This document shows positions 19,036 through 62,187 of a stretch of 64,000 nt of DNA, piece by piece. The DNA is from Limnohabitans sp. GTDB taxonomy: Bacteria > Pseudomonadota > Gammaproteobacteria > Burkholderiales > Burkholderiaceae_C. Below the pieces are notes generated by a model. The model saw only the letters and a list, made by a program, of their open reading frames with translations, was not told the DNA's origin and did no database searches. The first letter of the stretch is position 1. Each line of letters begins with the position of its first letter. Location of the stretch: contig JAOATL010000019.1 of NCBI GenBank assembly GCA_030158125.1, positions 62,001 to 126,000 on the forward strand, given 5' to 3'. Made by a program: the position numbers and the translations under genes.

Positions 19036-19128
19036 GGAAACGTGACCGAGTGGCCGAAGGTGCTCCCCTGCTAAGGGAGTATGGGGTGTAGAGCCTCATC
19101 GAGGGTTCGAATCCCTCCGTTTCCGCCA
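19036..19128 (+). tRNA. tRNA-Ser(GCU)
   Basis: A class II tRNA of 93 bases with encoded CCA. The acceptor stem GGAAACG pairs with CGTTTCC, the anticodon arm is CTCCC-CTGCTAA-GGGAG (anticodon GCT, reading AGC/AGU), a long variable arm follows, and the T arm contains GGTTCGAATCC. Position directly after lysC supports the call. Confidence 0.97.
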
Positions 19129-19174
19129 GTACAAAGACCTCAAACCTGCCCAGCAGGCCTTGAGACAGCCTCAG

Positions 19175-19198
19175 GCCCCGCACCACGCGGGGCTTTTT
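19175..19198 (+). terminator. Intrinsic terminator after tRNA-Ser
   Basis: A perfect 7-bp stem GCCCCGC/GCGGGGC with loop ACCAC is followed by TTTTT. It closes the lysC-tRNA-Ser unit. Confidence 0.9.
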
Positions 19199-19281
19199 GC
19201 TTTGGGCTCCTGACTGCGACATCCCGCAGCAGCCCGGCAAAGTCGTCTCAAACCCCGTTTGTCTCAAAACCTCATGACTTT

Positions 19282-19346
19282 TTCGGACTTGGTTCCGAGC
19301 CTTGAATTTACGGGTTTCGGCATGACAGGCTTTGAACCAAGCCGAA
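19282..19346. repeat. Imperfect inverted repeat at the core/island boundary
   Basis: The arms at 19282-19301 (TTCGGACTTGGTTCCGAGCC) and 19328-19346 (GGCTTTGAACCAAGCCGAA) match over about 16 of 19 positions and enclose 26 bases. No T-run follows on either strand, so it is not a standard terminator. It lies between the tRNA terminator and the end of drmC; apart from this I see nothing in the 198-base gap. Confidence 0.6.
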
Positions 19347-19396
19347 TAAAAGTTGGTGGTTCGGTTTGGGATCAGTGACTGGGCATTTGAGAATCG

Positions 19397-20200
19397 TCAT
19401 ACAGGGCCAGATAAACGGCTAAGTGTTCCGTCTGCAATCAGGCCATCAAGATATGTATTGGTCGAAATCAAGAATTCCGCGTTATTGATCAGGACGCCCA
19501 CTTCCAAGTTCCGGTTGAAAGCGTCGTCGGTAAGGTTGGCACTGGATATCAACGCGGTGTCGTCAATAATCGCCACTTTTGCATGGAGTTTTCCGGGACG
19601 CCCAGCCTGGTTACGTTCCCGTTTTTCGACTGGCCAGTGATAGACGTTGACCACTTTTATGAGTGTGGAAGGAAAGGCGTTCATTGCATCAAAGCTCAGT
19701 TGGCCTTCGGATGACTCTTCAAACTCAAGAATCAATCGAATTTTTACGCCACGCTGCGCGGCCTTCCAAAGCTCATCGGTCAATCGCTTTATCTTTGCCG
19801 CGGCAAAAGTTATCAATAAAATTTCGTGCTTAGCGTTCGCGATAAGGTCGTACAGTGCCTGGTCAATACGGCGCGCCGGTACTTTATTGGCTGGTGATGG
19901 TCCAGCCCACAACAATTCAATGTGCTGCTGAGCGCGCAAGTGATGAAAAGAGCTGGATGCAGTTTGAATTGCCCAGCTCAAAGCCTCCCACGACATTTGA
20001 CCTGATGCTGAGCGCACCGCCGAGGCCATAAGGAACGATACGTCTGCGTTAGCCGTAGCTGGCAATCGCTGGAGAACAAATTCCGCATTGGCATCGGCCG
20101 GCAGACTACGAAGGGTTTTGCATGCTGATATCAGCCAAGCTGTAGGTGCCTTGCGAATTAATTGTTCGACTGTGGTCAATAAATCGTCGAACATCAGCAT
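19397..20200 (-). CDS. drmC: DISARM protein DrmC (phospholipase D-like)
   Basis: The last gene of the DISARM operon encodes a 267-residue PLD-superfamily protein. One HKD motif is clear near residue 205 (HAKVAIIDDTALISSANLT), with preceding strands typical of the fold (HEILLITFAA). PLD-like DrmC proteins are often not essential for protection in studied systems; they are presumed nucleases or phosphodiesterases. The track begins at 20281, but the ATG at 20200 overlaps the drmB stop by one base (TGATG), so translation is coupled. Only one HKD motif is present, so activity would require dimerisation. Confidence 0.88.
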   Translation of the reverse strand: MLMFDDLLTTVEQLIRKAPTAWLISACKTLRSLPADANAEFVLQRLPATANADVSFLMASAVRSASGQMSWEALSWAIQTASSSFHHLRAQQHIELLWAGPSPANKVPARRIDQALYDLIANAKHEILLITFAAAKIKRLTDELWKAAQRGVKIRLILEFEESSEGQLSFDAMNAFPSTLIKVVNVYHWPVEKRERNQAGRPGKLHAKVAIIDDTALISSANLTDDAFNRNLEVGVLINNAEFLISTNTYLDGLIADGTLSRLSGPV

Positions 20201-22038
20201 CAATCGAAGAACGCAGTACCGCGAGCAGAGAATGTATTCACTAGGACAGACCGGTCTAGGTATCGATTGCCACGCTCGCAAGACGTTTCGGGTGCGAACT
20301 GGCAGGCATGGCAGCAGGCACCCTGTATGCCGCGGCCAAGCGTATCAGGGCGATGCTCTGAACACAGCGGATCTGATGCGCAGAGTCGCATGCTTTCTAG
20401 ACCCTGCAACATGTGCCTGCCCAATGTCAGAGGATTACCAAGCTCAACCAAACCACCCAGAGTGCCCTCGCTGTCGGGCGCGGCTGTGTAGATCAGGATG
20501 CCTGCCATTGGGCCGCCTTCTTCACCCGGTAGTCGCGAGTACAAGCGCTCCCGCACGCTGGCGGATGTGTACCCACAGTCCAGTACGATTTGCCTCATGA
20601 GCGCATGCGCGAGCGAATGAAGCAGCACCAGTCGAATACCAGGAAATCCTTCACCCAGTGGCTGCAGCTTGCGCAGTTTGCGCCACGCTTTGTGTGAATC
20701 AAGAAACTCATGCTCAAGCTGCTGCACTTCTGGCTTGTCTTGCCAGGCCAACAACACTTCTTCTCGAATGCGCAAAAAGATACCCTCGCCCCTAACCTCA
20801 GACGCTGGGAGCCATTTGGGATTTTCGCGGCTGAGCTTGGTTAGCCGACCATCCATGGTGACAGTCGCTTCTGCAAAATCTGCGTTCGATTCAATACGGG
20901 TGAAGCCAAGCAGTGCCCGAACCTCCCGGATGCGTTCAACCAAAACGGTATCTTCAAAGAAGGCCTCAAATCCTTTTGGCGGCGCAACTCGGGTCAGTTT
21001 GAAATCGCGATTTTCAGCGGCAGAATCCGGCTTTGAAAAGACCTGCCATTCGGGAAGTTTAAGATCTTCGGCTGGGGAATTGCCACCCTGAATGCCGGAC
21101 CGTTTGAGTTCGATTGCAGCCCAAATTTCTTCATCGCTAAATTCAGAAAACAATGGAATTAACGACTGGTAGTTCTGCTGCTCCTCACGGTAGAAACCCA
21201 ACTTAGAGATGCTTGTAGCATTGGTCAGCTTGGACCACTGCTCTTCAATCAACTTTCCAATTTTATCGACAGCACGCGGGATGGATAAAGCTGAAAATGC
21301 GGTGGGAAACCAGCTGTTGGATGAGCCAAGCAAAATTGCCTTTGCCGGTTCGGTACATCCTTGTTCAATTAGGCGTAGATGCGGATGATGCCCCGTGCAA
21401 GCAAATGGTGAATCTGGATCAAATGCATCTGCCATGCGTCGTTCAGCACCACATCCACAACTAACAATAATGTCAGAAGCATCACCGGACGCGCCAAATT
21501 CGCGCATAGTCATCTGAGAGCCTTGGCACGGAACATTACCCTTGTGGACAAAGGCGCGCCATGGAAAGTCTGATAAGTGCCCTTCGCGGCACGCCACTAA
21601 AAAGCGAACTGACATAGCCGTGGGTGCTCGCCCACCTTGGCTCTTGAGGCATCCCTGATGGACATAGGCGGTTTTGTCTGGGCGATAAGGGTCTTGAACC
21701 AGCTTGAAAACACCGGATTCCACTGAGGACAGCGTGTCGCAAAGTGAGCAACGCATCCACCGAGGAAAAGGAACTACAGGCACGCCTACTGCTGGGGCTG
21801 CAGGGTCACGTTCCATACTTTCCAGCTTGATTGGCGGCAAATAAAGTTTACCCATCTGTGCGCCAAGGCGCTTCTGAATGGCTGCTACAAGACGGTCTTC
21901 ATCCACCTCCTTGCAGTAGCTCGTATCCCAATCGTCCAGACCCATGACCAAGCCTGAGATATTTGGCAAATCAACCAACGATCCGATACCAAAGGTGAAA
22001 ATCAGTTGGCTGGGACGGAGTTCTCCGAGTTCGTTCAT
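20200..22038 (-). CDS. drmB: DISARM protein DrmB (DUF1998)
   Basis: A 612-residue protein with an N-terminal conserved opening (LRPSQLIFTFGIGSLVDLP), several paired cysteines that may bind zinc (CSLCDTLSS, then CGCGAERR) and a C-terminal DUF1998 domain: VLLHSLAHALMRQIVLDCGY, then a terminal cysteine set in GACCHACQFAPETSCERGNR. In characterised DISARM, DrmB forms a complex with the helicase DrmA that binds DNA with free 5' ends and is autoinhibited until triggered. It starts 10 bases after drmA and runs into drmC by one base. Confidence 0.92.
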   Translation of the reverse strand: MNELGELRPSQLIFTFGIGSLVDLPNISGLVMGLDDWDTSYCKEVDEDRLVAAIQKRLGAQMGKLYLPPIKLESMERDPAAPAVGVPVVPFPRWMRCSLCDTLSSVESGVFKLVQDPYRPDKTAYVHQGCLKSQGGRAPTAMSVRFLVACREGHLSDFPWRAFVHKGNVPCQGSQMTMREFGASGDASDIIVSCGCGAERRMADAFDPDSPFACTGHHPHLRLIEQGCTEPAKAILLGSSNSWFPTAFSALSIPRAVDKIGKLIEEQWSKLTNATSISKLGFYREEQQNYQSLIPLFSEFSDEEIWAAIELKRSGIQGGNSPAEDLKLPEWQVFSKPDSAAENRDFKLTRVAPPKGFEAFFEDTVLVERIREVRALLGFTRIESNADFAEATVTMDGRLTKLSRENPKWLPASEVRGEGIFLRIREEVLLAWQDKPEVQQLEHEFLDSHKAWRKLRKLQPLGEGFPGIRLVLLHSLAHALMRQIVLDCGYTSASVRERLYSRLPGEEGGPMAGILIYTAAPDSEGTLGGLVELGNPLTLGRHMLQGLESMRLCASDPLCSEHRPDTLGRGIQGACCHACQFAPETSCERGNRYLDRSVLVNTFSARGTAFFD

Positions 22039-22048
22039 ATTATTTTCC

Positions 22049-25000
22049 TCAATCGGTCCGTAAACCGGTGGACCTCTGGTCTAGCACCAAGTCAACCGTG
22101 CCTTCAACGTCGCGCAACGAATTAAGACAGGTAAACATTTCCCAATCCTTGTCGCTAGCATCTTCCAGCAAGCCAACTGTGGCACCACCTTCTGACCGGT
22201 AACCTAACTTGTGATCAGTCTGTTTATGCACCCGACTGAGCCACGCATCACGCCTGCGATCCAGCATGTCTTTTATGCGTACAGCAACCGCGGGATCATG
22301 GGTGGCATTGGCCCCACGTTTACTCAGCACATCGAACACTTGTGCCCAGATGGGGTCAGTGTCTGTGACTTCGCCCGCCTTCATGTTGGCATTGAGGTGG
22401 TCATCTGCCAAACGCATTAGACCCACCATGACACCGGTCAAGCCACGGTCCAGCGCCCGTGCTGAGAAGGGAGTGACAGAAAGGGCTTCTACGTGTTTAT
22501 AAAAAGTCTCGTGATAGTGCTCAAAGCGCTCATAGTGAGACAGATCGCGAGGTCGAGCCCAGTTGAAAACCGTACTCACAAAGCCCGGACCATCATTGGA
22601 GCGGCCAACACGGCTTGTCGCCTGGATGTATTCAGAGGTGTTTTTGGGCTGGCCAGCGACCAGCATCAAACCCAAACGCTCAATATCAACGCCGACGGAA
22701 ATCATATTGGTGGCTAGCACGACGTCATAGGGCACTGCTGAAGTCATTGGCGTACCTGCCTTGCGCTCAGCAGCCCTCTGAGCCTCGAGCGTCTTGTCAA
22801 AGGTTGCCTCTAGCCGTTCAAGTATCTTTGGGATGTCAATGCCAGATTTACGGGAAGTCAATTCTTCTACCGCACCCATTCGAATCCGTCGCTTGGCCAG
22901 ACCACGTTGGTCAGCATCACGAAGGCGTGCCCGAATATCGTCACCAACCAGTCGCCGGGTACCGGCAAGCTCACGGATCGAGTTGAAGTATCCGGTAAGC
23001 GTCATCCACGGATCAGCTAGGCGGTCGTACTTTTCAAAGAGGACCTGAGAGGAAGCCATGTGAGCAACATAGCTGCGAATCAAAGCCACTGGATAACGAC
23101 GCCCGAAGGCGCTGATACCGATGTAACGTCTGCCAGGATATTGAGCGCCCGTAGGTCGCTGAATGGCGAAGAAGCTGTCGCGAATGCTGGTACCTTGTGG
23201 CGGAAACACTTCAAGCTTACGCACAAATAAGTTTTGAACCTGGTCGGGAGCGCGACGAATCGTTGCCGTAGATGCGACAACTTTGGGGCGTACCTTCTTG
23301 CCATCGACCACCCATGAACAGAGTTCATCTACTGCTGCTTCATACAAACCCACCATGGAGCCTAGCGGGCCGCTAATTAAGTGCAATTCATCCTGAATAA
23401 TTAAATCAGGCGGTCGCAGGAAAGAATGTGCTCTGTTGGTTACGCGGGGTAGACCATTGCGTGACGGATGAGACTGAGCGTCATCAACCTCAGGCGATAA
23501 AAATCCATGTCGATCACATACAGCATTGACCTTACCAAACAACATTTGTGTTTGGCCTTTCCATGGCATCTGCGCAAATTTATCCACTGTCGCAATCAGC
23601 AGGGAGGGGGGTCGACGATAGATTTCTTCGTCCACCACCATCACCGGCAAGCCCTCTTTGGGCGCTTGTTTTGCTGTGAATTCGCAGCGGCCCAGACTGT
23701 CACCACAGTACGTCACGCAGCGACCAATATCACTAGGCGCTTCATAGACATGAAGGTGTTGCTCCCTGATCGAACTGCCACACCAGGGACAGGACGTAAT
23801 TTGATGCGGTGTACCGGATGATGTTGGACGGCCACCTACATTGTGTTGGCGCAACGAGTTGGCAGCCGATGCCAGCGTATTTGGGGTGGTCTTGTTACCA
23901 ACCCACAGCCCCAAGCGGAATGGAGTCTCACCCCATTTGGCAACATCAGCACGGCGTATCGTTTCACAGGCGCACATCAAAGCCGCAGCACGTTGGAATT
24001 GTTGCAAGGTCAACAATCGCAGGGTATAGCGCATCAGGACCGCAATGCCATGCTCACCGCTTCGACCTTCAATCACCCCTTGAAGCCGACGTAAGGCAAG
24101 GGTGTAAGCGGTCAAGCCCAAATAAGCTTCAGTTTTACCGCCACCGGTGGCAAACCAGAGCAGGTCAGCAACGGCATCGGTTTCATGGCTTCGATCGGGA
24201 TGTTGCAGGTCGGTAAGGCTGGGCAGGTTGAGCAACACAAACGCCATCTGGAAAAGACGCCAGCTTCGGTTCTCAGGCTGGTCGAGCGAACTCGTACCAT
24301 CTTCAATTGTTAACGCATTTTTGCGAACTTTACGGGCAAAGATGGAGTGAATACGCTGTTGCCACATGGCACGATTGGCAAAGCGGAAAGCCTCCTCCGC
24401 TAGCGGATTAGACTCAATCAGGCTCACCCCCGCATTGATTCGCTCCAATGCCCGGCGGCAGCTCTTGACGGATCGCAGTGCCGCCTCTTCATGTCCTTGC
24501 AATCGCTCTTTGGGCAATTGCAGCTTGACCTCTTCAACGTTGATCCAGACCCGATAAGCCGTCTCGATATGGCGAAGGCTGGCGATCAAACCTTCCTTGG
24601 GTAGCTCGCTCAAGATCTTCATGTCCATGGTCAGACCAGCAAGGTTCTCGTCATCTTTGGCGGAACGAGGAGTTTGCTGGGGAACTTCAAACATTGGCAC
24701 CCATTCGGTTTCCACCATCACGGCACGCTCAGCAAGGGGCTCCGGTAATGTCGAATGAATAGAAATCCCGTGCCCAACAGCGAATTCGCGCTGGTGGCGA
24801 TACAGCATTTCAAGCGTTTCTGTCTCTTCACGGGTCAACGGATCCATGCGTGAAAGGTCCGCCTTGGCGTTCTTGCGCTGGACAAATATGGGTGCGTTAT
24901 CGGCACCATGTACACGCAGTTTTGGCTGGAACAACCAGACCTCGTCTTTGGGCTCATTACGGCCTTTACGCTCTTCTTGCAGGTTGACCATGAAAAGCGT

Positions 25001-25534
25001 TGCCACCCAACCATCAGCAGTTAGGCGCATACGCCCTTGCATCACAACCAGCGGATGGTCAGGATGCAGGGTCACAGGAGCAATAACACCGTCTTTCAGT
25101 TTGAGCGTCATTTGTGGTGCTATGACTGCTGTCCGCTTCCAGACCCTGGCGGGATTCCCGTCCTTTTTGAGTTGAGCTTCACTTGATACCTTGAGGTACT
25201 GCCCCCAATCGGCCTCAACCACAATTTCCTGTACGTCTGCGGCAACCACAAAGCTCAGGCCCATTGACGAGGGGAAATAGGTACTGCCAGCAGGGACACC
25301 TGAATCAGCTGGACCTTCTTCACCGTCATCCCCATCGCCAGTTGCTAGTTCATCTAATTCACCACCGTCAACTTCCTTGTCTTTTGGGGCGAGCATGCCT
25401 ACCAGATACCGCTGGTAAGCATGGTCTTCGTATTGATTCAATTCTTCTTCAGCGCCTCCAGCTGGGCCAAGCAGGTCACGAACAACCATGCTGGTGAGTT
25501 CGTTTCGAATGTCGGTGGGGGTGGCAATATTCAT
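22049..25534 (-). CDS. drmA: DISARM helicase DrmA
   Basis: A 1161-residue SF2 helicase with C-terminal helicase domain. Motif I is FATGGGKTEAYL near residue 465, motif II a DELH box (IIQDELHLISGPLGS) near 715, motif III STATIRR, and motifs IV-VI lie around 940-970 (ATNMISVGVDIERL, then ATSRVGRS). The N-terminal 400 residues are family-specific and include an acidic stretch rich in Asp, Gly and Glu. DrmA is the core of DISARM in both classes, and partners with DrmB. The start overlaps the drmMI stop by 4 bases (ATGA). Confidence 0.93.
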   Translation of the reverse strand: MNIATPTDIRNELTSMVVRDLLGPAGGAEEELNQYEDHAYQRYLVGMLAPKDKEVDGGELDELATGDGDDGEEGPADSGVPAGSTYFPSSMGLSFVVAADVQEIVVEADWGQYLKVSSEAQLKKDGNPARVWKRTAVIAPQMTLKLKDGVIAPVTLHPDHPLVVMQGRMRLTADGWVATLFMVNLQEERKGRNEPKDEVWLFQPKLRVHGADNAPIFVQRKNAKADLSRMDPLTREETETLEMLYRHQREFAVGHGISIHSTLPEPLAERAVMVETEWVPMFEVPQQTPRSAKDDENLAGLTMDMKILSELPKEGLIASLRHIETAYRVWINVEEVKLQLPKERLQGHEEAALRSVKSCRRALERINAGVSLIESNPLAEEAFRFANRAMWQQRIHSIFARKVRKNALTIEDGTSSLDQPENRSWRLFQMAFVLLNLPSLTDLQHPDRSHETDAVADLLWFATGGGKTEAYLGLTAYTLALRRLQGVIEGRSGEHGIAVLMRYTLRLLTLQQFQRAAALMCACETIRRADVAKWGETPFRLGLWVGNKTTPNTLASAANSLRQHNVGGRPTSSGTPHQITSCPWCGSSIREQHLHVYEAPSDIGRCVTYCGDSLGRCEFTAKQAPKEGLPVMVVDEEIYRRPPSLLIATVDKFAQMPWKGQTQMLFGKVNAVCDRHGFLSPEVDDAQSHPSRNGLPRVTNRAHSFLRPPDLIIQDELHLISGPLGSMVGLYEAAVDELCSWVVDGKKVRPKVVASTATIRRAPDQVQNLFVRKLEVFPPQGTSIRDSFFAIQRPTGAQYPGRRYIGISAFGRRYPVALIRSYVAHMASSQVLFEKYDRLADPWMTLTGYFNSIRELAGTRRLVGDDIRARLRDADQRGLAKRRIRMGAVEELTSRKSGIDIPKILERLEATFDKTLEAQRAAERKAGTPMTSAVPYDVVLATNMISVGVDIERLGLMLVAGQPKNTSEYIQATSRVGRSNDGPGFVSTVFNWARPRDLSHYERFEHYHETFYKHVEALSVTPFSARALDRGLTGVMVGLMRLADDHLNANMKAGEVTDTDPIWAQVFDVLSKRGANATHDPAVAVRIKDMLDRRRDAWLSRVHKQTDHKLGYRSEGGATVGLLEDASDKDWEMFTCLNSLRDVEGTVDLVLDQRSTGLRTD

Positions 25535-28500
25535 TCAGGTGATTCCAGCGTTGAATTTGATTTATAACGGGCTCCACGTTTTTCCCCGATACGCTCTATT
25601 TTTCCTGCCTCAAGCAAATCGCTTATGGTCACGCTCCATTTTTTTTCGGGGAAATTTGTGGCAGTAAGAATGGTCTCTTTGCTGTGCCAACCAGGATTAG
25701 CAGTTAGATAATCAGAAATTAATTTACCAATAAAGAGGCTATTTTGAGAAACATCGCGAAATAAATCTTCCTGATTACTAACTTGACTCTTGCTAATTTG
25801 GGTAGAGCTAATCGGCATTCTTTTTTTATGCAGTCCAGCGGAAATCTCTTCATTATGTCGCTTATGGTTAAGCTCCAACAACCTATCTAATATCTCTAAT
25901 CTAGCTGATTGGCATATAGTAAAACGTATTCCTTGTTTGGTTTCGTGAAATCCGTGCTCAAGATTAAGATCTGTCCATCCGTAAGCAGCCGCAACTGTTT
26001 CATCAATTTGTATAATTGTGGTGCGAAATTCTAAAATGTCATCTTGCTGATTTATTGGATCATTAATCATATTCTCAAGTGCCGTAAGACCTAGGTCATA
26101 GGCATCCATTAAGCCCCGCCTTTTTCTTAAAAAGCTAACTTCAATTGCGTTCAGGGACGTTGCATCTTCAGGGAATGGGAAAGTTTCAAAGCAATCTGTT
26201 AATGCATAGTTGTACCCTGCATTCCGCATGCTGGAACCATAATAAGTGCTCCATGTCCAATGAATTGAACTTTGAAGCAGTATTAATGGGTTATCACAAA
26301 GTACGGCAAGTCGTTGATCAAATACAACGCCATTATCAATATATTCAAATGCCCAAGAAGAACTAACTTGTGTTTTGACAAGAACTTTTTTAAGTGAAGC
26401 AATACGGGCATAAAGAGACTTCTGTTTTTCTGCAAATTGCCACCAAATATCTCTATAAACTGGACGTTTCACAAGTGCTCTTACTGGCTTAACATCCTTT
26501 TCTAAAATATCCAGTAGATCCGGATAATCTTCGGCAACAGGATGAGGGTAGTCTTTGGGAACAACTCCAGTCCGCAAGAATTTCTTTTTATCTAACTCAC
26601 TGGATGAAATCCATAATCCAACATCAGAACGTTTTAATGGCCAGTCGTGGAAGTTTATAATCCATCTCCTAGGAGATTGATCAACCCTCGAGTTCAAATC
26701 TTCGCCATTTATGTAAGGGAAAAGGCATTCCTTATTTTTGGGGGATTTTTGTATTAAATTTTGAGCGGCTTCGTAGCTCAGAACAAATCCCTTTCCCAAT
26801 ACGACATTACCTTGGTATGAGCTATTTGAGTTGCTTTTTAGTTGGAAAGGTTTTCCTTGCGTTTTGCCAGGAACACTTAGCATGGAGCTAATTTTCTTAA
26901 CTTCTTTGCCGTCAAGATTAAATTTCCCTTTCCAATTATTTTTTGAAAACCATATAAGAGAAACATCAATGGCTGCCATACCTGGCCAAGGCATTGAAAC
27001 AATAGCCCTTATTAAATCTCCTCCACTGGATGTAATTTGATCTAGCCCTACATCTCTTGTGTCACCTTGTGAAATGGTATTGGTTGAAATTACGCCAGCT
27101 ACACCTTCTTTCCGCAATAATTTTGCCATTCTTAAAATGAAGAAGGCACTTAAATCTGCATTGCCTTTCACGCCATTAGCTATGTGCGCAGTCAGTAGCT
27201 CACGATAATCTGACCCAAGCACACCAGAGATTTTTTTTCCACCAATAAATGGAGGATTTCCAACAAAAGCATCAAAACCACCGCTTTCAATTATTTCAGG
27301 AAAAGTTAAGTTCCAATGCAGTGCATTACGACCAGCTAATTTTTCGTGGGAATAACTTTTAAGTTCTTGAAAACCCTTATCCCAATAGGAAATCATTGTC
27401 TCAGCGGACGTTTCACGTCCTAATTCATAGGCTCTTCCCTTCAGTCCTTTTAATTCAACCGCCATAAGTGCGTCAGCTGCTGCGCTTAGCATGGCAACTG
27501 AATTTTCAGCCTCCGCATAAAGGATTGTCTTGGTTTCAATTTGCTCTGGAGTGTCTGATTGCATTAACTTCAATGCATCTCTTTTTTCCTTTGCGTTCTT
27601 CAAACGTTGCCTCATATCGAGTGTGCCAAATGACTGCTGCTTTCCACCACCAGGCCGTAAGCTGAAGTTTTCTAATTGTTCAAGCGCCGTAATACCCAGC
27701 AAAGAGTCGCCGCACTTGAAGCCGTGATCCAAAAAGGTGAATGGACGGTTTGCATCAACGGTAACGAGCCAGAGTGAAAGTTTGGCCATTTCAACCGCCA
27801 TCGGGTTGATGTCAACACCATAAAGACAACGATCGGCTACAACACGGCGGGCAATGGCTATACGTTCTGCGGCTTCGACGGGCACCAAACGCTCACTAGC
27901 GGATCCATCAGAGAAATTGCCATCGGGCGTGATCAGCAATTGGTCAGGATACAGCTTCTCCTCATTTTCCCAAGATTCAACCAGACGTTCTGCCAGGTAG
28001 CGGCACGCTTGCACCAGAAAAGCTCCCGAACCCATCGCCATGTCACAGACCTTAAGGTCAAGAATGTCCCTGGGGGACTTGAGCGTCCATTGCTCACGCG
28101 GCCAGCCGTTAGAGGGGCCTAGGTAGACCAGTGGCTCCAGCGTGTGCTGGACGATAGGCTCAGTAAGTGTTGGGGGCGTGTAATGGGTGCCAGAACTGCG
28201 CCGGTCGGTGCCCGAGGTGACATAGACGCTTCCAGTCAGTACTACCAATGGGCGCTCAAACGAATCTTCGCGGATCAGACGGGCAAAGGGCAACAGTCGG
28301 ATTAGCAAGGCTTGGTCGTGACCGCAGGAGACCAGAAGCTTGTGCTCATCAAGCAGACTGCCATCGTCGAGTGATTTGCGTATCGCAGATAGTGAGCGAC
28401 CGGTAGTTTCTTTTAGAAATTCGACGAGCTTATCCTGACCTTCTGCGAACAAGGACTCCAGTTTGGAAAGTGGGATTTCAGCTTCCTTGTTGCGAGGGCC

Positions 28501-29868
28501 TTTGATGCCCAGCACTGGTTCTGAAGCGAGAACTCCCGTGTGATCAAGCAAGCCCTCATAGACGTGGCCAATTTGTTCAACCCCGAGGGCGCGAAAGGAA
28601 ATGCGCCGTGTCTCAGCCATACCACCTGCGCTGGATTTCATACGCAAGCGTTGTAAAGAATTGAGTAGATGCAGCACCACTCGGTTATTGACCCCCAGAG
28701 GTTCGGCTGTGGTTTTACGCCAAAGACTACCAGCTGCCCTTCCTTCAAGGAATGGATATCGGTCTGGATCAAACAATGAGCCGCCGTAGGCTTGCATCAA
28801 CAGGTCTTGATGCTTGACGCCACCATGCACAGCCCGGAAGCTGGACAACAGGCGTGCCCAAGCATCGGTCCGGCGCTCCAAAACTTCTTCGCCATAGAGG
28901 TCAGCAATTTCCTGCAGTTGCTCCTGCAATGTTGAAACCGCGTAGTTGTTGTCATACAGCGGCTTGCCGAGGTGCAATAAACCACGTTCCTCCGCCGAAA
29001 ACAAGAAAACCAGCCGCATCATGATGGTCAGTGCAGCTTCATATTGCGCAGTTGGGCTGACGCCCTCCAAAAGGATTCGATTGCTATCCTTGTCAAGTGC
29101 ATCAAAGGACTGGACCAGCACCTCTACAGCTTCACGCACCTGAAAACCAAGCTGATCGGTAACCTCTTGCTGGTCATTGGCACTTTCCTTGAGCAATGCT
29201 AAGAGCGTGCTGTTATCAGCAACCCCAAAGAAGCGGCGCACACCTAGAAGGGAGTGAAAAGCACGCAAAGTGATGGGCTCGTCCAACCAAAGGGCACCAA
29301 ACCATGATGCGTACCCTGTGATTTCCCCGCGGGGTGCGTATACAAGCATCCATTGCTCGCCATTCGTTACCAGACCCAAGGGAACATCTGCGCCATGCAG
29401 TAATTCCATCATTCGCGTAGCGGGGGTTGCTTTCCAGTGCTTGCCTATGACTGGGCGATCAAGTTTCTGCTCAGCGGGGTAGCTGGAGATCAGCAATTGA
29501 GCCTTGCCACTTGTATCTGTACCGGCTGGACCAATCAGAGCAAAGTCAGGGCGCAAGGTTTCACCCATTTCTGGCATCTTAGCTTCCAAGCCTGCAGGAA
29601 GAGCTTGCCCTTCAACAACTTGACTTGCCGGGTAACCAAGCACCGTTGTTAGGACATGGAGCACCCACGCGCGCTGTTGTCCAGGTGCTGCAGGGTTGTC
29701 CTGCCATTCCTCATATGCGGCGCGCAGAGCCTTTGCCTGAGTTGGATCTCGCGGCTCCAGACCATGCGAAAAAACTCGAAGCAATACCGGTAGCGAAACA
29801 AACGGCCCTGATATCTCAACAAGGGACAACCAGTCAGAATGATGGCGAGAAGCGGTGTGGGCGCTCAT
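25531..29868 (-). CDS. drmMI: DISARM class 1 adenine methyltransferase DrmMI
   Basis: A 1445-residue gamma-type N6-adenine methyltransferase. The SAM motif I is VCDMAMGSGAFLVQ near residue 610 and catalytic motif IV is NPPF near 870; the C-terminal part (LFIGKLISDYLTANPGWHSKETIL) looks like a winged-helix module after the target recognition region. DrmMI methylates host DNA as the self-marking part of class 1 DISARM. Base composition changes sharply: from about 25540 to 27650 (residues about 740 onward) the gene is much more AT-rich than the rest of the operon. It overlaps drmD and drmA by 4 bases each. Confidence 0.92.
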   Translation of the reverse strand: MSAHTASRHHSDWLSLVEISGPFVSLPVLLRVFSHGLEPRDPTQAKALRAAYEEWQDNPAAPGQQRAWVLHVLTTVLGYPASQVVEGQALPAGLEAKMPEMGETLRPDFALIGPAGTDTSGKAQLLISSYPAEQKLDRPVIGKHWKATPATRMMELLHGADVPLGLVTNGEQWMLVYAPRGEITGYASWFGALWLDEPITLRAFHSLLGVRRFFGVADNSTLLALLKESANDQQEVTDQLGFQVREAVEVLVQSFDALDKDSNRILLEGVSPTAQYEAALTIMMRLVFLFSAEERGLLHLGKPLYDNNYAVSTLQEQLQEIADLYGEEVLERRTDAWARLLSSFRAVHGGVKHQDLLMQAYGGSLFDPDRYPFLEGRAAGSLWRKTTAEPLGVNNRVVLHLLNSLQRLRMKSSAGGMAETRRISFRALGVEQIGHVYEGLLDHTGVLASEPVLGIKGPRNKEAEIPLSKLESLFAEGQDKLVEFLKETTGRSLSAIRKSLDDGSLLDEHKLLVSCGHDQALLIRLLPFARLIREDSFERPLVVLTGSVYVTSGTDRRSSGTHYTPPTLTEPIVQHTLEPLVYLGPSNGWPREQWTLKSPRDILDLKVCDMAMGSGAFLVQACRYLAERLVESWENEEKLYPDQLLITPDGNFSDGSASERLVPVEAAERIAIARRVVADRCLYGVDINPMAVEMAKLSLWLVTVDANRPFTFLDHGFKCGDSLLGITALEQLENFSLRPGGGKQQSFGTLDMRQRLKNAKEKRDALKLMQSDTPEQIETKTILYAEAENSVAMLSAAADALMAVELKGLKGRAYELGRETSAETMISYWDKGFQELKSYSHEKLAGRNALHWNLTFPEIIESGGFDAFVGNPPFIGGKKISGVLGSDYRELLTAHIANGVKGNADLSAFFILRMAKLLRKEGVAGVISTNTISQGDTRDVGLDQITSSGGDLIRAIVSMPWPGMAAIDVSLIWFSKNNWKGKFNLDGKEVKKISSMLSVPGKTQGKPFQLKSNSNSSYQGNVVLGKGFVLSYEAAQNLIQKSPKNKECLFPYINGEDLNSRVDQSPRRWIINFHDWPLKRSDVGLWISSSELDKKKFLRTGVVPKDYPHPVAEDYPDLLDILEKDVKPVRALVKRPVYRDIWWQFAEKQKSLYARIASLKKVLVKTQVSSSWAFEYIDNGVVFDQRLAVLCDNPLILLQSSIHWTWSTYYGSSMRNAGYNYALTDCFETFPFPEDATSLNAIEVSFLRKRRGLMDAYDLGLTALENMINDPINQQDDILEFRTTIIQIDETVAAAYGWTDLNLEHGFHETKQGIRFTICQSARLEILDRLLELNHKRHNEEISAGLHKKRMPISSTQISKSQVSNQEDLFRDVSQNSLFIGKLISDYLTANPGWHSKETILTATNFPEKKWSVTISDLLEAGKIERIGEKRGARYKSNSTLESPE

Positions 29869-32800
29869 GACCGGCTCCTTGTGATCTCAAGTACCGCTTT
29901 ACGCGGAATCAGCCAGGTGACAGCAACTGGAAAAAGCCTCGCACTCGGATTGGAAAAGCGAGATCGGATGTGATCGGATTCACGCTGAATTTCTTCTGGA
30001 ATTTCCATGATGCGGCGGTGCAGAGCTGCGAGATCATTTTCCCTCTGACGTTTGCCAGGTTCATCTGCGCCAAGATCCAACACCATTTGCGGACCATCTT
30101 TACGATCCAGCTCAGCTTGGATGGCGCGTTGGAGCTCCGTCATTACGGTCTTGATCTTGTTCACTTCTTTTTCGGCCAGCTCTTCAAGGTTCTTTTCCAG
30201 ATTCTTTGTGCGCTCGACACGACGGACATCCAGTGATGCCAGCAATGCATCCCGATTTTTAGCCCACAGGGCCTGAAAACGTTCCTCAATAGCCGCTGGT
30301 ACAGGGTTGTCTGTCGCAGCTTCCAATGCAGTTTTTGTTTCGCCAACGTTAAGGCGACTGAAGCGGCCTTCAATCAGCGCACCGCCCGCAGTGATGACTT
30401 CTTCGTGAAGGCGGTGGTTATCACCTCCTAGTACGACGATACGGCCATGGGCAATGACTACCGGGTGGCTCAAGGCTGAGTCGTCAACAATGCAGGCCGA
30501 TACCCTTGATAGGTGCTTAGCTTGAGTCCCCAAGGACCAGATTTCAGCACGCAACAAACGCAGGCACATTTGAACCAATCTGTGGTTAAGGTGGGCAAGC
30601 ACTACATCATCGCGTCCGGTGGCAAGGGCAGCGTCGAAGACGATGGGGCGTACCCTCTTGTTATGCGGATGGGCAAGCCCATCGGCACATTGGGCCCAAC
30701 TGTTTGAAAGAGCTGGTAAGCGGAAGACCGGGCAGGTTTTCCGCACACCGGTGGGATCAGGCCAGATGCCCTCAACATTGACCGGAATTAGCGCCGGTTG
30801 CTCGGCCAGTTCAAGACCAACACGGACCACGTTTTCTATGTGCTCAGGTGTCAGGTTCAGCTCATGCTGGGTTTCATGTAATTGGGACGCGAGTTTTTCC
30901 AATTGCTCACGCAGCTTGCGCTCAAACTTCAGCATTTTGCGTACTGGTTCAGCTTCCAGTTCAGCGCGCGTGGTATCAAGCCTGCTGCGTCGTCCAAGCA
31001 TGGCTTCTTCAACCTGGCTGGCAATAACGGGACCCACTTTGCCAAGATCTTCTCGGATAGTCTCAACCTTGAGGGCAGCCCGCATCAGGAATTCAAGGTC
31101 ACCTTCTAAATCACCTACCTTGCCGGAAACACTGGCGTCGGCAAAGCCGCGGCCAACGAAATGGTGAATGTGGACTTCATCAGCTTTTTGGCCATGACGA
31201 TCAACACGGCCATTGCGCTGCTCCATGCGATTCGGGTTCCACGGAATCTCAAAGTGAATAAGCTTTGAGCAGTGGTTTTGTAAGTTGACACCTTCTGATG
31301 CGGCGTCGGTGGCCAACAGAATCCGCACTTTGGATTCCTTCGGGTTGGATTGAAACGCCGCCTTGATGGGTTCGCGCAGGTCATTCATCATGCCCCCAAA
31401 GATCATTTCTAGGCGTCCATCCGCGGCCAAACCCTCACGGGCCAGCAAATCGAAAAGCCATTTTTGTGTGGCGCGGTATTCGGTAAAGATGATGACGCGC
31501 TCGTCATTCCACTGACCACCGGTTTGCAAGGTAGTTTTAATCCAGTCGATCAGCGTTTGTGCCTTGCAATCAGGTCGCTGCGTGCTCTTGGCGGCAAATT
31601 CGCTGAGCTCACGCAGTAGCGCCTTTTCTTCGGTAGATATGGGCGACAGAGCCTGGCTGACAGCGCTAACAACTTCCCCGGTTTCGACTTCGTAAGCTTC
31701 ATCATCGGCATAGTCATCCGAAAAATCTTCAATCTCACGATGGAGGTTGCTGGCTAGCTTGCGACGGCCAACCGTGTCAATGTGCTTTTTCAATGTGATG
31801 CCAAAGGCGGCAGGCGATGAAAACAGCCGCTTTTTAAGCAGCTTCAAAACAAATTCGGTGGCCATGCGTTCGCCGTCCGTCGTGGCCTGCTTCAAGCGCA
31901 ATTCAGAATATTGGCGCAAAGCTTGGTGAGCCTGACGCTCTTCGTCGGTGTGGGGTACCTCAATATGTTTGACCATGCGCTCAGCAAAGCGACGACTCCC
32001 ATCCCAGCGCAGCTTGAGTTCGGACTTCATTCGTCGGACCATGACTGCATCGAGCTGGTTGCGGTCAGGAGTGACAGCCCGAGCAAATCGTTGGTTATCA
32101 AGTAACTCCAGAAGTGCAGCAAAACTTTCGCGATAACCGTTATGCGGGGTAGCTGACAAGAAAAGCTTGTGCTCAAAATGCGGACCCAGAGAGCGGATTG
32201 CCGTGGTGCGCTGGGAGTCCGTGGCGTACTTTCCACGGCCAGAGGGCGCAACGTTGTGCGCCTCATCCACGATCATTAGGTCATACGCGCGCGGGTAGGT
32301 TGGCTGGTCACCTGCGGGAAGCGTTTCACGGAAGGTGCGTAACGGTCTTTCGCGCTTGAGAAAATCGATTGATGTGATCAACCGCGGGAAATGTGACCAT
32401 GGATTGACATGGATACCCCGCTTGCGACGCAGCTGGCTAATGGTTTCACTGTCAATGATGCGAAATTCCAGACCAAATTTGTCGCGCATTTCTTCCTGCC
32501 ACTGCACTTGCAGGGAAGATGGGCAGATGATCAAAACTGAGCGCACCCGGTGGCGCAGGATCATTTCCTGTACCACCAAGCCAGCTTCTACCGTTTTTCC
32601 AAGCCCGACGTCATCGGCAATTAGCAGATTCACCCGCGGCATGGACAGGGCGCGGACCACCGGATCCAACTGATACTCGTCAATTTCAATGCCACTGCGG
32701 AAGGGTGATTGCAGGGCTTTGTCATCAGCCTGGGAGACTGCTCCCCAGCGGACTGCATCTAAAAAGGCCTGTAAGCGTTTTGGATGGTCGAATGAATCAG

Positions 32801-33020
32801 GGTCCGGTAGCGTGGATTTTTCATGCACCTGGGTGCCGGGTTCCAGCTCCCAAATGACATTCAGTTCTTCGCCAATCCCATCATCCTCGACGGAGGACAG
32901 CTTGATTAGGTGGGTGGGCCGTGCACCATCGCCGCCCAAACCAGGAGCGGAGGGAATTATTTCCGTTACGACAAATGGTCGTTTCCGAACGATAGCAAGT
33001 TGACCAATTTCGGGAGTCAT
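29865..33020 (-). CDS. drmD: DISARM class 1 SNF2-like helicase DrmD
   Basis: A 1051-residue SNF2/RapA-type ATPase whose presence with DrmMI defines class 1 DISARM. Motif I is ADDVGLGKTVEAG (about 135-147), motif II DEAH at 252-255 (MIVDEAHNVAPS), motif III LFLSATPHNG, and the C-terminal motifs are LLATDAASEGVNLQ and EQRNGRVDRHGQ. The N-terminal 75 residues form a small beta-rich segment (IGQLAIVRKRPFVVTEI) like the SH3-like domains in front of such helicases. It overlaps the 70-aa ORF and drmMI by 4 bases. Confidence 0.93.
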   Translation of the reverse strand: MTPEIGQLAIVRKRPFVVTEIIPSAPGLGGDGARPTHLIKLSSVEDDGIGEELNVIWELEPGTQVHEKSTLPDPDSFDHPKRLQAFLDAVRWGAVSQADDKALQSPFRSGIEIDEYQLDPVVRALSMPRVNLLIADDVGLGKTVEAGLVVQEMILRHRVRSVLIICPSSLQVQWQEEMRDKFGLEFRIIDSETISQLRRKRGIHVNPWSHFPRLITSIDFLKRERPLRTFRETLPAGDQPTYPRAYDLMIVDEAHNVAPSGRGKYATDSQRTTAIRSLGPHFEHKLFLSATPHNGYRESFAALLELLDNQRFARAVTPDRNQLDAVMVRRMKSELKLRWDGSRRFAERMVKHIEVPHTDEERQAHQALRQYSELRLKQATTDGERMATEFVLKLLKKRLFSSPAAFGITLKKHIDTVGRRKLASNLHREIEDFSDDYADDEAYEVETGEVVSAVSQALSPISTEEKALLRELSEFAAKSTQRPDCKAQTLIDWIKTTLQTGGQWNDERVIIFTEYRATQKWLFDLLAREGLAADGRLEMIFGGMMNDLREPIKAAFQSNPKESKVRILLATDAASEGVNLQNHCSKLIHFEIPWNPNRMEQRNGRVDRHGQKADEVHIHHFVGRGFADASVSGKVGDLEGDLEFLMRAALKVETIREDLGKVGPVIASQVEEAMLGRRSRLDTTRAELEAEPVRKMLKFERKLREQLEKLASQLHETQHELNLTPEHIENVVRVGLELAEQPALIPVNVEGIWPDPTGVRKTCPVFRLPALSNSWAQCADGLAHPHNKRVRPIVFDAALATGRDDVVLAHLNHRLVQMCLRLLRAEIWSLGTQAKHLSRVSACIVDDSALSHPVVIAHGRIVVLGGDNHRLHEEVITAGGALIEGRFSRLNVGETKTALEAATDNPVPAAIEERFQALWAKNRDALLASLDVRRVERTKNLEKNLEELAEKEVNKIKTVMTELQRAIQAELDRKDGPQMVLDLGADEPGKRQRENDLAALHRRIMEIPEEIQRESDHIRSRFSNPSARLFPVAVTWLIPRKAVLEITRSRS

Positions 33021-33229
33021 TGCTGTTTCCTGTCAAAGTGGCGCACTTTGTCGCGCTTGAATGAGAAATTCAAAGGATGCATTTTGGTGAGGCTCTCCAG
33101 TTCTTGAAGTTCGCCTGAACTGCTTATTAGGGTAATTTCATAGCCTGACCTATAAATTCTCTCAACACGCCATTCTTTCTCCCGAATGACTGTTTGAGAG
33201 CCAGGTGTGTTGGCCAACATGTGGTTCAT
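33017..33229 (-). CDS. 70-residue protein of the DISARM operon, unknown function
   Basis: A small gene tied to both neighbours by 4-base overlaps: its start overlaps the WYL regulator stop and its end overlaps the drmD start. It reads GSQTVIREKEWRVERIYRSG then ITLISSSGELQEL, a pattern of alternating strands like an SH3-type small barrel, similar in character to the N-terminal segment of DrmD. It ends in a basic tail (FSFKRDKVRHFDRKQQ). It is not one of the named DISARM components (DrmA-E, MI, MII). It may be a detached accessory domain of DrmD or a DNA-binding adaptor; this is inference. Confidence 0.75.
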   Translation of the reverse strand: MNHMLANTPGSQTVIREKEWRVERIYRSGYEITLISSSGELQELESLTKMHPLNFSFKRDKVRHFDRKQQ

Positions 33230-34149
33230 TCAATGTTCCTTAACTCACTAACCGACCTACTCGAGGGATACCCGGGAGCAAGTGCAGCGCTTTCAACGCC
33301 GTAAAGTGTTTGTGAATTTTTCAACCAAAGATGGTGCTCTTTGGGGTCCAAGGTGTGCTTGGTCGAGCAATCAACTGACCAGCGTCTCAAGGCATAACCG
33401 ACGAGTGGGGCTCGCATGTCAAGCGCCAGCATGCCGTTGTGCATCATGAAGTCAGCCTCGATCGCCTTGGGGTGGGCAATGCCCGGGTGGGGCACCAGCT
33501 CGATATGGACCAGTCGTGCCCACTGCACATCTGACTCAATTTGTTCTTCGACTGGGATGGGCTGGTCAATCGGCTTTGCCTTGACGATCCGTGTCAATGC
33601 AAAGTCGGCAAAGCGGCCCCGCTCACGGTCATACGCGCGCAAATGCCAACGTAGGCCCGTGTCGGCCAAGGCCAGAGGGCACAGCGTCTTGGTTGACGCC
33701 CCTGAGGTCAATGACAGGTAATTGACTTTGACTTGGCGTCTGCCAGCGATGGCTCGGGTAAGTGTTGCCAGCGTTTCGATGTCGGGCTTGACCAGGTCGC
33801 TGGCGCTTTCACAGGGAACAGTGCGCTTGAGCTTTTGGTCCATGTTGTCACCAAAGCCTGCGCGGAACCAGGTGAGCACACGCTCTGCAGAGTGCTCGAA
33901 CAGCGGGGTGAAGCGGTCGGTCGTTGCGTACTTTCGCTGACCTGCGTCATAGAAGAGGTTCAGTGGAGCCAGGCGGCGGTACGTGCTCAGGTCGCGTGCT
34001 GATGCGGCAGGCTTGACCCCAAAGCGTCGCTCAATGTCCGCGCGAGTCAGATCGCCGCAGAAGAAGGCTTTGACTTCAATGTAGAAAAGTCGCTCTCGTT
34101 GCGTCTGCGTCAGGTCGTCAAGTGCAGCAGCGACTCGTTTGTTGACCAC
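33226..34149 (-). CDS. WYL-domain transcriptional regulator (BrxR/CapW-like) of the DISARM operon
   Basis: A 307-residue regulator, first gene of the operon. The N-terminal winged HTH (LTRADIERRFGVKPAASARDLSTYRRLAP) is followed by a WYL domain and a C-terminal WCX-like region. Its layout and opening (QRERLFYIEVKAFFCGDLTRADI) resemble the BrxR/CapW family that controls BREX, CBASS and other defence operons, where the free protein represses and a ligand bound by WYL relieves repression. The start is a GTG at 34149 behind GGAG. Being within the operon suggests autoregulation, possibly at the inverted repeat upstream. Confidence 0.9.
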   Translation of the reverse strand: MVNKRVAAALDDLTQTQRERLFYIEVKAFFCGDLTRADIERRFGVKPAASARDLSTYRRLAPLNLFYDAGQRKYATTDRFTPLFEHSAERVLTWFRAGFGDNMDQKLKRTVPCESASDLVKPDIETLATLTRAIAGRRQVKVNYLSLTSGASTKTLCPLALADTGLRWHLRAYDRERGRFADFALTRIVKAKPIDQPIPVEEQIESDVQWARLVHIELVPHPGIAHPKAIEADFMMHNGMLALDMRAPLVGYALRRWSVDCSTKHTLDPKEHHLWLKNSQTLYGVESAALAPGYPSSRSVSELRNIE

Positions 34150-34192
34150 GGATTTGTCTCCATCTTATTTGCTCGTGTTCCACTCTAGCATA

Positions 34193-34219
34193 TTCAATGA
34201 CTACACTTAATCATTTTGA
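34193..34219. promoter_or_regulatory. Candidate operator of the WYL regulator
   Basis: An imperfect inverted repeat, TCAATGA - 10 bases - TCATTTTGA, lies about 45 bases upstream of the regulator start in the 160-base divergent spacer between the DISARM operon and the plus-strand small gene. It overlaps the likely promoter zone (a TATGCT on the minus strand lies just downstream). Assignment is by symmetry and location only. Confidence 0.35.
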
Positions 34220-34312
34220 TGCAGATAAGCGGCATTGGTGCTAGAATTTTTTTAGAACGATCAGGTTGGATCCGGTCGCCAGGCCCGAAATCATCACTTT
34301 TAGGAGATGAAC

Positions 34313-34603
34313 ATGTCTTTTTGGCAAATCTTGGGGCGATTCGCTGTGTCCGACACCGGTGAAACATTGCAAAAGGTCTCGGACACCACCAGCGTCTCGT
34401 CTGACGGCACGACCTACACAAAGATGGGTTCGACCACCGTTGGGTCAGATGGGTCTGTCTTCACTCAGATGGGAAGCTTTAGCACCGACGGCAGCACTCG
34501 CATGGGAAGCACTGCCACTGGACTTGGTGCTGTTTTCAACAACTCGAGCGACGACTTTGGGATTGGCTCCAAAAAATCCAGAAATGACTTTGACGATTTT
34601 TAA
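34313..34603 (+). CDS. Small repeat-containing protein, unknown function
   Basis: A 96-residue protein (MSFWQILGRFAVSDTGETL) built of three degenerate repeats: SSDGTTYTKMGSTT, GSDGSVFTQMGSFS and STDGSTRMGSTAT, ending in an acidic FDDF-type tail. The repeats resemble the short Ser/Gly beta-strand repeats of intrinsically simple proteins. The track starts at the ATG 34307, but the AGGAG box is right against it; the ATG at 34313 has better spacing. The macrodomain gene starts 14 bases downstream, so the two form a unit. No known family recognised. Confidence 0.7.
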   Translation: MSFWQILGRFAVSDTGETLQKVSDTTSVSSDGTTYTKMGSTTVGSDGSVFTQMGSFSTDGSTRMGSTATGLGAVFNNSSDDFGIGSKKSRNDFDDF

Positions 34604-34617
34604 GGTACTTGAACTTC

Positions 34618-35139
34618 ATGCAGATTGAAATCGTCATTGGCAATATCGTCCAGCAACCGGATGTCGATGCGCTGGTTAACTCAGCCAACGCCAACCTTCG
34701 CTTTGGATCAGGCGTGGCCGGTGCCATTCATACTGCAGCCGGGCCAGAACTTGAGCAGTATTGCCGCCGCCATTCACCGATTGCGCTGGGTGAAGCTGTT
34801 GTGACCCCCGGCTTTGAACTGCCCAACCCATTTGTGATTCACACGAGGGCAGCCAGTTTCATCAATGACGATCACCCCGAGAAATACCTCGACCTTGCCG
34901 TTGCTCAGACTCTCCGTGTGGCCAAAGAAGCAGGGATCAAATCAATGGCCATGCCCGCGATCGGAACTGGCGTTTTCAAGTTCCCACCAGAGTTGTCTGC
35001 TGAAATCATCATTAACGGCCTAGTGAGTCGAAGTGAGGACTACCCAGAGATCCATTTGGTACGGATTTGCGTTGGTACGCAAGAAATGAAGGCCGTTTTC
35101 GCTTCTACTTTGGCTGCAAAAATATCTTCTCCTGCATAG
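34618..35139 (+). CDS. Macrodomain (ADP-ribose-binding) protein
   Basis: A 173-residue protein consisting of one macrodomain. Hallmarks are IVIGNIVQQPDVDALVNSANANL, the glycine-rich loop GSGVAGAIHTAAG, and the second ADP-ribose loop PAIGTGVFKFP. Such proteins bind or hydrolyse ADP-ribose or its derivatives, for instance removing ADP-ribose from proteins or nucleic acids. It follows the repeat protein closely and is divergent from DISARM. Its last 35 bases overlap, in the opposite direction, the end of the first prophage gene, so the C-terminus (AAKISSPA) may have been replaced on prophage integration. Confidence 0.88.
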   Translation: MQIEIVIGNIVQQPDVDALVNSANANLRFGSGVAGAIHTAAGPELEQYCRRHSPIALGEAVVTPGFELPNPFVIHTRAASFINDDHPEKYLDLAVAQTLRVAKEAGIKSMAMPAIGTGVFKFPPELSAEIIINGLVSRSEDYPEIHLVRICVGTQEMKAVFASTLAAKISSPA

Positions 35140-61830: not shown

Positions 61831-62187
61831 ATGAATATTTTGACCAAAGAAGCCATCCTTGCAGCCGATGATCTGCCGCGCGAAACAGTCCTGGTACCTG
61901 AGTGGGGGGGAGACGTCTACGTCCGCACCATGAGCGGTACGGACCGCGATGCCTTTGAGAGCAGCCTTATTGCTCGCGATGGTGCAAAGGATGGTCGTAT
62001 GGAAAACGTTCGAGCCAGACTTGTCGCGCTCACCCTTTGCGATGCGACGGGCAGCCGTCTTTTTGAAGATAGTGAAATTGTTGCGCTTGGCCGAAAAAGT
62101 GCTCGAGCACTAGACAGGGTTTTCGCTGTTGCTCAGCGTCTAAACGGTATCGGTATCGAGCAGGCTGAATCAGCAAAAAAGGACTAA
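61831..62187 (+). CDS. Tail assembly chaperone gpG
   Basis: A 118-residue protein between tail tube and tape measure genes, of the lambda gpG-type: LTKEAILAADDLPRETVLVPEWGGDVYVRTMSGTDR is typical. It ends ESAKKD. A slippery A AAA AAG lies just before its stop and leads into the gpT frame. It shields the tape measure protein until the tube polymerises. Confidence 0.88.
   Translation: MNILTKEAILAADDLPRETVLVPEWGGDVYVRTMSGTDRDAFESSLIARDGAKDGRMENVRARLVALTLCDATGSRLFEDSEIVALGRKSARALDRVFAVAQRLNGIGIEQAESAKKD
62175..62181 (+). other. Programmed -1 frameshift site A AAA AAG
   Basis: The heptamer is in the correct zero frame of gpG (GCA AAA AAG GAC TAA). A -1 slip reads AAA AAA GGA CTA AAG and enters the downstream gpT frame without meeting a stop. 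This is the canonical lambda-type arrangement for tail assembly chaperones. Confidence 0.85.

Follow-up and report, generated by a model that had tools for sequence, protein, structure and literature searches.

A class 1 DISARM operon of Limnohabitans as a probable exchangeable cargo behind a BrxR-type WYL regulator at a tRNA-Ser site

The 64-kb stretch of Limnohabitans sp. DNA analysed here (positions 62,001 to 126,000 of contig JAOATL010000019.1, assembly GCA_030158125.1; hereafter the window, with coordinates counted from its first nucleotide) carries what is, judged from its sequence, a complete, intact-looking class 1 DISARM (defence island system associated with restriction-modification) operon preceded by a WYL regulator gene and a 70-aa open reading frame (ORF). 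We consider it likely that this operon is one exchangeable cargo among many, located at a tRNA-Ser hotspot of Limnohabitans and preceded by a resident regulator head. By head we mean the BrxR-type WYL gene, the conserved block upstream of it, a 98-aa ORF and a macro-domain-like gene (Table 1). Sequence comparison of related loci shows that the head is nearly constant while the cargo varies (BREX (bacteriophage exclusion), Pbe-like, Zorya-like, DISARM and others). The cargo is bounded on one side by the segment that follows the tRNA and on the other by the WYL 3' end.

A scan of 90 Limnohabitans genomes (cut-off E<1e-40) recovered a WYL protein in nine of them. Eight, the window included, are 93-100% identical, the ninth (G465) reaches 49%, and sampled family members outside the genus reach 58% at best. 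WYL proteins of 88-99% identity head DISARM in the window, in G023 and in an IMG/VR contig (L177/L188), and three assemblies keep the WYL gene, the 70-aa ORF and drmD together. At the same level of identity the WYL protein also heads at least seven other, unrelated anti-phage operons in sister species, and a 46-bp block is shared with such loci in the genus. According to PADLOC, a complete BREX type I operon lies behind it in G482, PbeA/PbeC plus further genes in G463 and ZorA/ZorB in G487. Elsewhere the cargo consists of an SNF2 helicase, a GHKL ATPase and restriction-like proteins (G507), of two ORFs without a PADLOC match and an HmaB-like methyltransferase (L275, with a shortened form in G480), of a type III restriction-like helicase (G466), or of a type I restriction-modification (RM) system and a patatin phospholipase (L277), and L200 has DUF499/DUF3780/DUF1156 behind a 75% identical WYL. 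In the compared loci the WYL gene is always first and co-directional with the cargo. Since a near-identical regulator heads unrelated defence operons, the locus looks like a fixed control switch with exchanged systems.

Two of these cargoes can be described further. That of G507 (L288:14389-19196) comprises an SNF2 helicase, a 141-aa protein, a GHKL (MzaB-like) ATPase, a 216-aa protein and a type IV-like restriction endonuclease, followed by a vsr-like gene, and is a candidate mosaic defence operon. The two-gene module of L275 (L275:11040-14767; L292/L293 in G480) encodes proteins of 912 and 329 aa, the first of them P-loop-like, has no PADLOC match and is a candidate for an undescribed defence system.

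The tRNA-Ser(GCT) gene lies ~270 bp past drmC, and the lysC-tRNA stretch is continuous in about 30 genomes of the genus. Four same-site loci have lysC, tRNA-Ser(GCT) and the ~230-bp segment after it, namely the window and G023 (DISARM), G463 (Pbe-like) and G507 (SNF2/GHKL/restriction endonuclease), and their common stretch reaches 19346-19356 or further. About 235 bp past the tRNA, at ~19346-19362, loci that differ in cargo part ways, a point that immediately precedes the 3' end of the DISARM cargo. On the other side, the boundary falls in the last ~13 codons of the WYL gene: the WYL proteins stay collinear as far as residue 294 (...ESAALAPGY), beyond which every one of them has a different, cargo-specific tail. 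A near-constant regulator thus stands before different defence operons at one site, which is what characterises a WYL-headed exchangeable defence hotspot. In related genomes the ~230 bp after tRNA-Ser(GCT) (19129-19362) are also found next to serS, after sequence sharing the tRNA-Ser 3' end (G000:C24:336880-337068 and G029:C36:9606-9868), and the window's own genome has a 79% copy; the two tRNA-Ser loci appear to have exchanged their downstream flanks.

A preliminary description of this DNA had claimed a complete class 1 DISARM operon of seven coupled genes with its own WYL regulator. The gene order, the single strand and the overlap values were all reproduced on recomputation: seven ORFs without internal stops lie on the minus strand (WYL, 70-aa ORF, drmD, drmMI, drmA, drmB and drmC), and the junctions from WYL to drmC overlap by 4, 4, 4, 4, -10 and 1 bases when drmC is read from the internal ATG at 20200 (267 aa). 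The longest drmC ORF (19397-20281, TTG start) is an over-extension, because the DrmC profile begins at its residue 30. Completeness was borne out as well, as PADLOC models identify all five proteins (best matches: DrmC 1.8e-132, DrmB 6.4e-72, DrmA, DrmMI and DrmD E=0 each), with DrmD and DrmMI both falling in DISARM families. The class 1 core of drmA, drmB and drmC shares an operon with an SNF2-like drmD and an adenine methyltransferase gene, drmMI. The Pfam domains agree with PADLOC (phospholipase D (PLD), MZB/DUF1998, helicase, Eco57I/MmeI and SNF2), the WYL gene matches a PADLOC WYL model, and the catalytic motifs are intact (DrmD GLGKT/VDEAH; DrmA ATGGGKT/DELH; DrmMI DMAMGSG/NPPF; DrmC HxKx4D). 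Internal promoters or terminators would have split the proposed unit, but promoter-like and terminator-like matches are rarer across the region than expected (8 vs 12.5 and 15 vs 19.4 in shuffled sequence), and therefore nothing separates the operon genes.

By homology the WYL protein is a member of the BrxR/CapW repressor family. Its best PDB match is BrxR of the Escherichia fergusonii plasmid pEFER (7qfz, E=1e-74), residues 6-294 of which align to residues 9-296 of the query, i.e., over the full length (winged helix-turn-helix, WYL and WCX domains); further matches are CapW (3e-36) and BrxR of Acinetobacter (8e-17). The earlier view of a BrxR/CapW-type WYL as the promoter-proximal gene with coupled junctions is upheld. 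The gene is under purifying selection, with nonsynonymous and synonymous substitution rates (dN and dS) of 0.009 and 0.18 between the window and the IMG/VR copy. Nine loci with different cargo have the 46-bp block in near-invariant form, once per locus and always equally far from the WYL start. Homology and this conserved block make autoregulation by the WYL protein plausible. At the far end of the head, similarity to the sister locus G023 stops within the macro-domain-like gene, at 35038.

The reading of the regulator as DISARM's own, made in the preliminary description, is not supported, given the near relatives without WYL and the other cargo behind it. Of the 277 drmD loci from a scan of 84,980 species genomes, the best 80 were examined. 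Among these, WYL lies directly upstream of drmD only in L144 (contig NZ_CAMDLM010000031.1 of the Limnohabitans sp. Rim8 metagenome-assembled genome (MAG)), which is the same contig as G023:C31 and thus the same-site sister locus, and a 44% WYL relative is found further upstream in L142. DISARM copies with drmD 77-97% identical are without this WYL wherever their upstream region is readable. Outside this setting the nearest DISARM is that of L097 (drmD 97% identical), which has no WYL but a TniQ-like gene and a 202-aa ORF in front of it; its match to the window sets in exactly at the drmD start codon. DISARM operons from other genera of the family likewise carry no WYL, and several of the readable upstream regions have a cytosine-methyltransferase-like or Vsr-like gene before drmD instead. 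The TniQ-like gene beside the 97%-identical drmD (L097:108-815) suggests a transposon-linked copy of the same operon. In L070, L072 and L077 (G252, G092 and G326) a cytosine-methyltransferase-like gene is directly upstream of the drmD of a class 1 DISARM, possibly forming a two-methyltransferase DISARM; L075 has a Vsr-like gene.

The 70-aa ORF spans the interval from the end of WYL to the start of drmD, with an ATGA overlap on either side. Between the window and the IMG/VR copy its dN is 0.050 and its dS 0.048, a rough estimate from only 10 substitutions; the values for drmD are 0.006 and 0.16. The ORF has no Pfam or PADLOC match and, beyond three copies of the locus, no homologue in plasmids or in the ~42,000 ORFs of the compared loci, and its AlphaFold prediction is uninformative (predicted local distance difference test score, pLDDT, 41). 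For these reasons and with a dN/dS of ~1, a conserved DISARM subunit was rejected, and a stray N-terminal SNF2 helicase domain is unproven (profile comparison with DrmD: E=0.15, probability 0.4%). Its junction position, the absence of homologues and the dN/dS of ~1 lead us to read it as a probable junction scar, which may still serve as a translational bridge coupling WYL to drmD.

The operons of the window and G023 are 92-94% identical on both sides of positions 25525-27425, inside which there is no nucleotide match. Residues 1-640 of DrmMI are 93% identical to both G023 and L097, the C-terminal catalytic part is 53-64% identical, and the recognition region about 35-45% to anything found. Within the 3' half of drmMI the GC content drops from about 53% to 36-43%, and the replaced part is low in GC in both alleles. 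The difference fits a replacement of the specificity half of the methyltransferase, and the DrmMI proteins of the window and G023 are predicted to recognise different motifs.

Table 1. Features of the head, the DISARM cargo and its boundaries (window coordinates)
Feature	Position	Strand	Basis
tRNA-Ser(GCT), chromosomal anchor, immediately downstream of lysC (17756-19018)	19036..19128	+	ARAGORN
Left shared anchor, ~230 bp after tRNA	19129..19356	.	Same position in window, G023, G463, G507; exchange breakpoint about 19356-19362
drmC, PLD family, 267 aa from ATG at 20200, HKD motif	19397..20200	-	PADLOC, Pfam
drmB, DUF1998/MZB protein, 612 aa	20200..22038	-	PADLOC, Pfam
drmA, superfamily 2 (SF2, YprA-type) helicase, 1161 aa, ATGGGKT + DELH	22049..25534	-	PADLOC, motifs
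Replaced 3' half of drmMI (C-terminal methyltransferase part + target-recognition region)	25531..27425	-	No nucleotide match to G023
drmMI, Eco57I/MmeI-type adenine methyltransferase, 1445 aa, DMAMGSG + NPPF	25531..29868	-	PADLOC, Pfam, motifs
drmD, SNF2-type helicase, 1051 aa	29865..33020	-	PADLOC, motifs
70-aa ORF in WYL/DISARM junction	33017..33229	-	ORF, comparison
WYL regulator, BrxR/CapW family, 307 aa, GTG start	33226..34149	-	Pfam, PDB comparison
Right exchange breakpoint, 3' end of WYL gene	33268..33287	.	Nucleotide similarity ends, every different-cargo comparison
46-bp upstream block (CTGCATCAAAATGATTAAG..AGTC..TGAATATGCTAGAGT.GA), candidate promoter/operator	34179..34224	-	Conservation in nine loci
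98-aa ORF, divergent from WYL, part of conserved head	34307..34603	+	Nucleotide comparison of loci
Macro-domain-like gene, part of head in several loci	34609..35139	+	Sequence reading, not hidden Markov model (HMM) match

Over most of its length the DISARM island shares 93-97% identity with G023, against about 74-87% for lysC; because the island exceeds lysC in identity, it has probably moved horizontally between lineages. A serine-integrase prophage starts at ~35141, about 1 kb beyond the WYL gene, and reaches beyond 64000, with a serine integrase cassette and helicase, primase, terminase, portal, capsid and lysozyme-like genes. The contig (C19) ends inside it, just past the lysozyme gene at ~77.8 kb in window coordinates, so that its right end is unassembled, and a search of the window's genome for the right junction did not recover the chromosomal gene that lies downstream in relatives. 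Close relatives of the prophage are present in G463 and in many IMG/VR contigs. At ~74428-76383 of the contig (L002) lies a phage late gene with a radical-SAM-like (S-adenosylmethionine) cysteine motif, preceded by a 185-aa ORF; the pair recurs in G482 (L297/L298) and is an unusual phage cargo conserved between related prophages. No attachment repeat enclosing the cargo was found in C19 or around the G463 prophage, and the 22-nt tRNA 3' end has no second copy in the genome, other matches having 3 mismatches; DISARM as the cargo of a tRNA-integrated element was rejected on these grounds. The cassette may be chromosomal, phage-borne or both.

If DISARM is indeed a cargo behind a resident head, the locus could work as follows. 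A WYL dimer would repress the promoter upstream of its own gene and keep the long coupled transcript low, until a ligand made or released in infection relieves the repression, as proposed for BrxR/CapW. DrmMI would then mark the host's DNA, its target-recognition region determining the site, and incoming DNA without the mark would be attacked by DrmA/DrmB together with DrmD and DrmC. The cargo would be swapped by homologous recombination between the two shared anchors, and since it is replaced between them, a new system would arrive already under repressor control; a second, finer exchange would replace the recognition half of drmMI. More tentatively, and at somewhat less than even odds in our view, the tRNA-Ser segment and the WYL gene might form a dedicated exchange platform, in which whole cassettes of any type are swapped via the last codons of the regulator. 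Every newcomer would in that case come at once under one common repressor that responds to infection, and gaining a methylation-dependent defence would be less toxic in an unmethylated host.

Several points weigh against an exchangeable cargo under one repressor. In L275, G480, G487 and L200 the first cargo gene begins ~50-140 bp after WYL and could therefore have its own promoter. The cargo of G480, G466 and G487 is incomplete or at contig ends, several compared loci are MAGs or viral contigs, and we infer the recombination mechanism from the breakpoints alone. The 46-bp block holds no significant inverted repeat (p 0.05-0.9), whereas characterised BrxR sites have inverted repeats of 10-11 bp, and no sigma-70-like promoter was matched at it. 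An inverted-repeat operator thus finds no significant support in the sequence, and the operator assignment follows from conservation alone. The lack of a significant repeat and the gap after WYL in some loci would both suit a WYL gene that is a mere recombination landmark, kept as the flank of the hotspot and without control of the cargo. The strong purifying selection on the protein, the constancy of the upstream block across loci and the invariably first, co-directional gene position nevertheless make this quite improbable, and members of the family have been proven to repress the defence genes that follow them (Picton 2022, PMC9122601; CapW, PMC9122588).

The same promoter-proximal, co-directional and 4-bp coupled position, and the cohesion of WYL, 70-aa ORF and drmD in three assemblies, might also indicate a regulator that is dedicated to DISARM and has evolved together with the operon. 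The comparative data largely refute this and leave it very improbable, as the same WYL heads at least seven other systems and close DISARM relatives are without it, similarity to WYL-less DISARM starting at the drmD start codon. Head and cargo could alternatively be part of the serine-integrase prophage, as a lysogenic-conversion hotspot between integrase and attachment site that the phage carries to exclude competitors. Indeed, one and the same integrase cassette borders the head in the window, G463, L188, L192, L197 and L200, with the phage-side boundary fixed at ~35141, head and cargo are beside phage late genes in G480, G466 and G482, and hotspots beside integrases are known in prophages (Rousset 2022, PMC9122126). 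However, in G023 and G507 the head and its cargo occupy the same lysC site with no phage at the junction, the island-side boundary varies, and neither the enclosing attachment repeat nor a complete virus record with the cargo was found, so that we regard a prophage origin as rather unlikely.

DISARM, BrxR and WYL-headed hotspots (SXT) are already known. BrxR and CapW have been shown experimentally to repress BREX and CBASS (cyclic oligonucleotide-based antiphage signalling system) loci (PMC9122601; PMC9122588), and a survey found BrxR homologues beside BREX, RM types, CRISPR-Cas, Wadjet, Zorya, Thoeris, Pycsar and CBASS, with 0 occurrences of DISARM (PMC9122601). The present operon resembles other class 1 DISARM in having all five genes in class 1 order, with high PADLOC scores and intact motifs, and differs in the BrxR-type WYL and 70-aa ORF in front, which relatives lack, and in the drmMI recognition half, replaced relative to its sister. 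Like the regulators of BREX in E. fergusonii and Acinetobacter and of CBASS, the WYL protein has a full-length BrxR match and its gene is the first before a defence operon; unlike there, the cargo is DISARM, and binding site and repression are predicted. In SXT integrative elements of Vibrio cholerae, too, a WYL gene is upstream of interchangeable defence systems (LeGault 2021, as described in PMC9122589). As far as that description goes, the Limnohabitans hotspot differs in its chromosomal tRNA-Ser site beside a serine-integrase prophage, in a cargo that includes DISARM, BREX, Pbe-like and Zorya-like systems, and in a breakpoint mapped to the last WYL codons. The antiviral hotspots of P2/P4 prophages and satellites share variable defence cargo near an integrase and a regulator (Rousset 2022, PMC9122126), but here the multi-gene cargo is 13.6 kb long and the head has no phage at the junction in two of the four same-site genomes. 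DISARM as the cargo of a BrxR-type head, an exchange boundary at the regulator 3' end with a constant promoter block, and a paired drmMI recognition swap were not found in the literature searched, most subscription papers being outside the search.

How large, potentially toxic defence operons enter a naive host without harming it, and how their expression is timed, is an open question. The Limnohabitans loci offer a natural series in which near-identical regulators precede some eight different operons, three of which share a single chromosomal site. With this series one can ask directly whether unrelated defence mechanisms answer to a single repressor and a single signal. The paired DISARM alleles, which differ mainly in the recognition half of the methyltransferase, would provide a clean test of what determines DISARM specificity.

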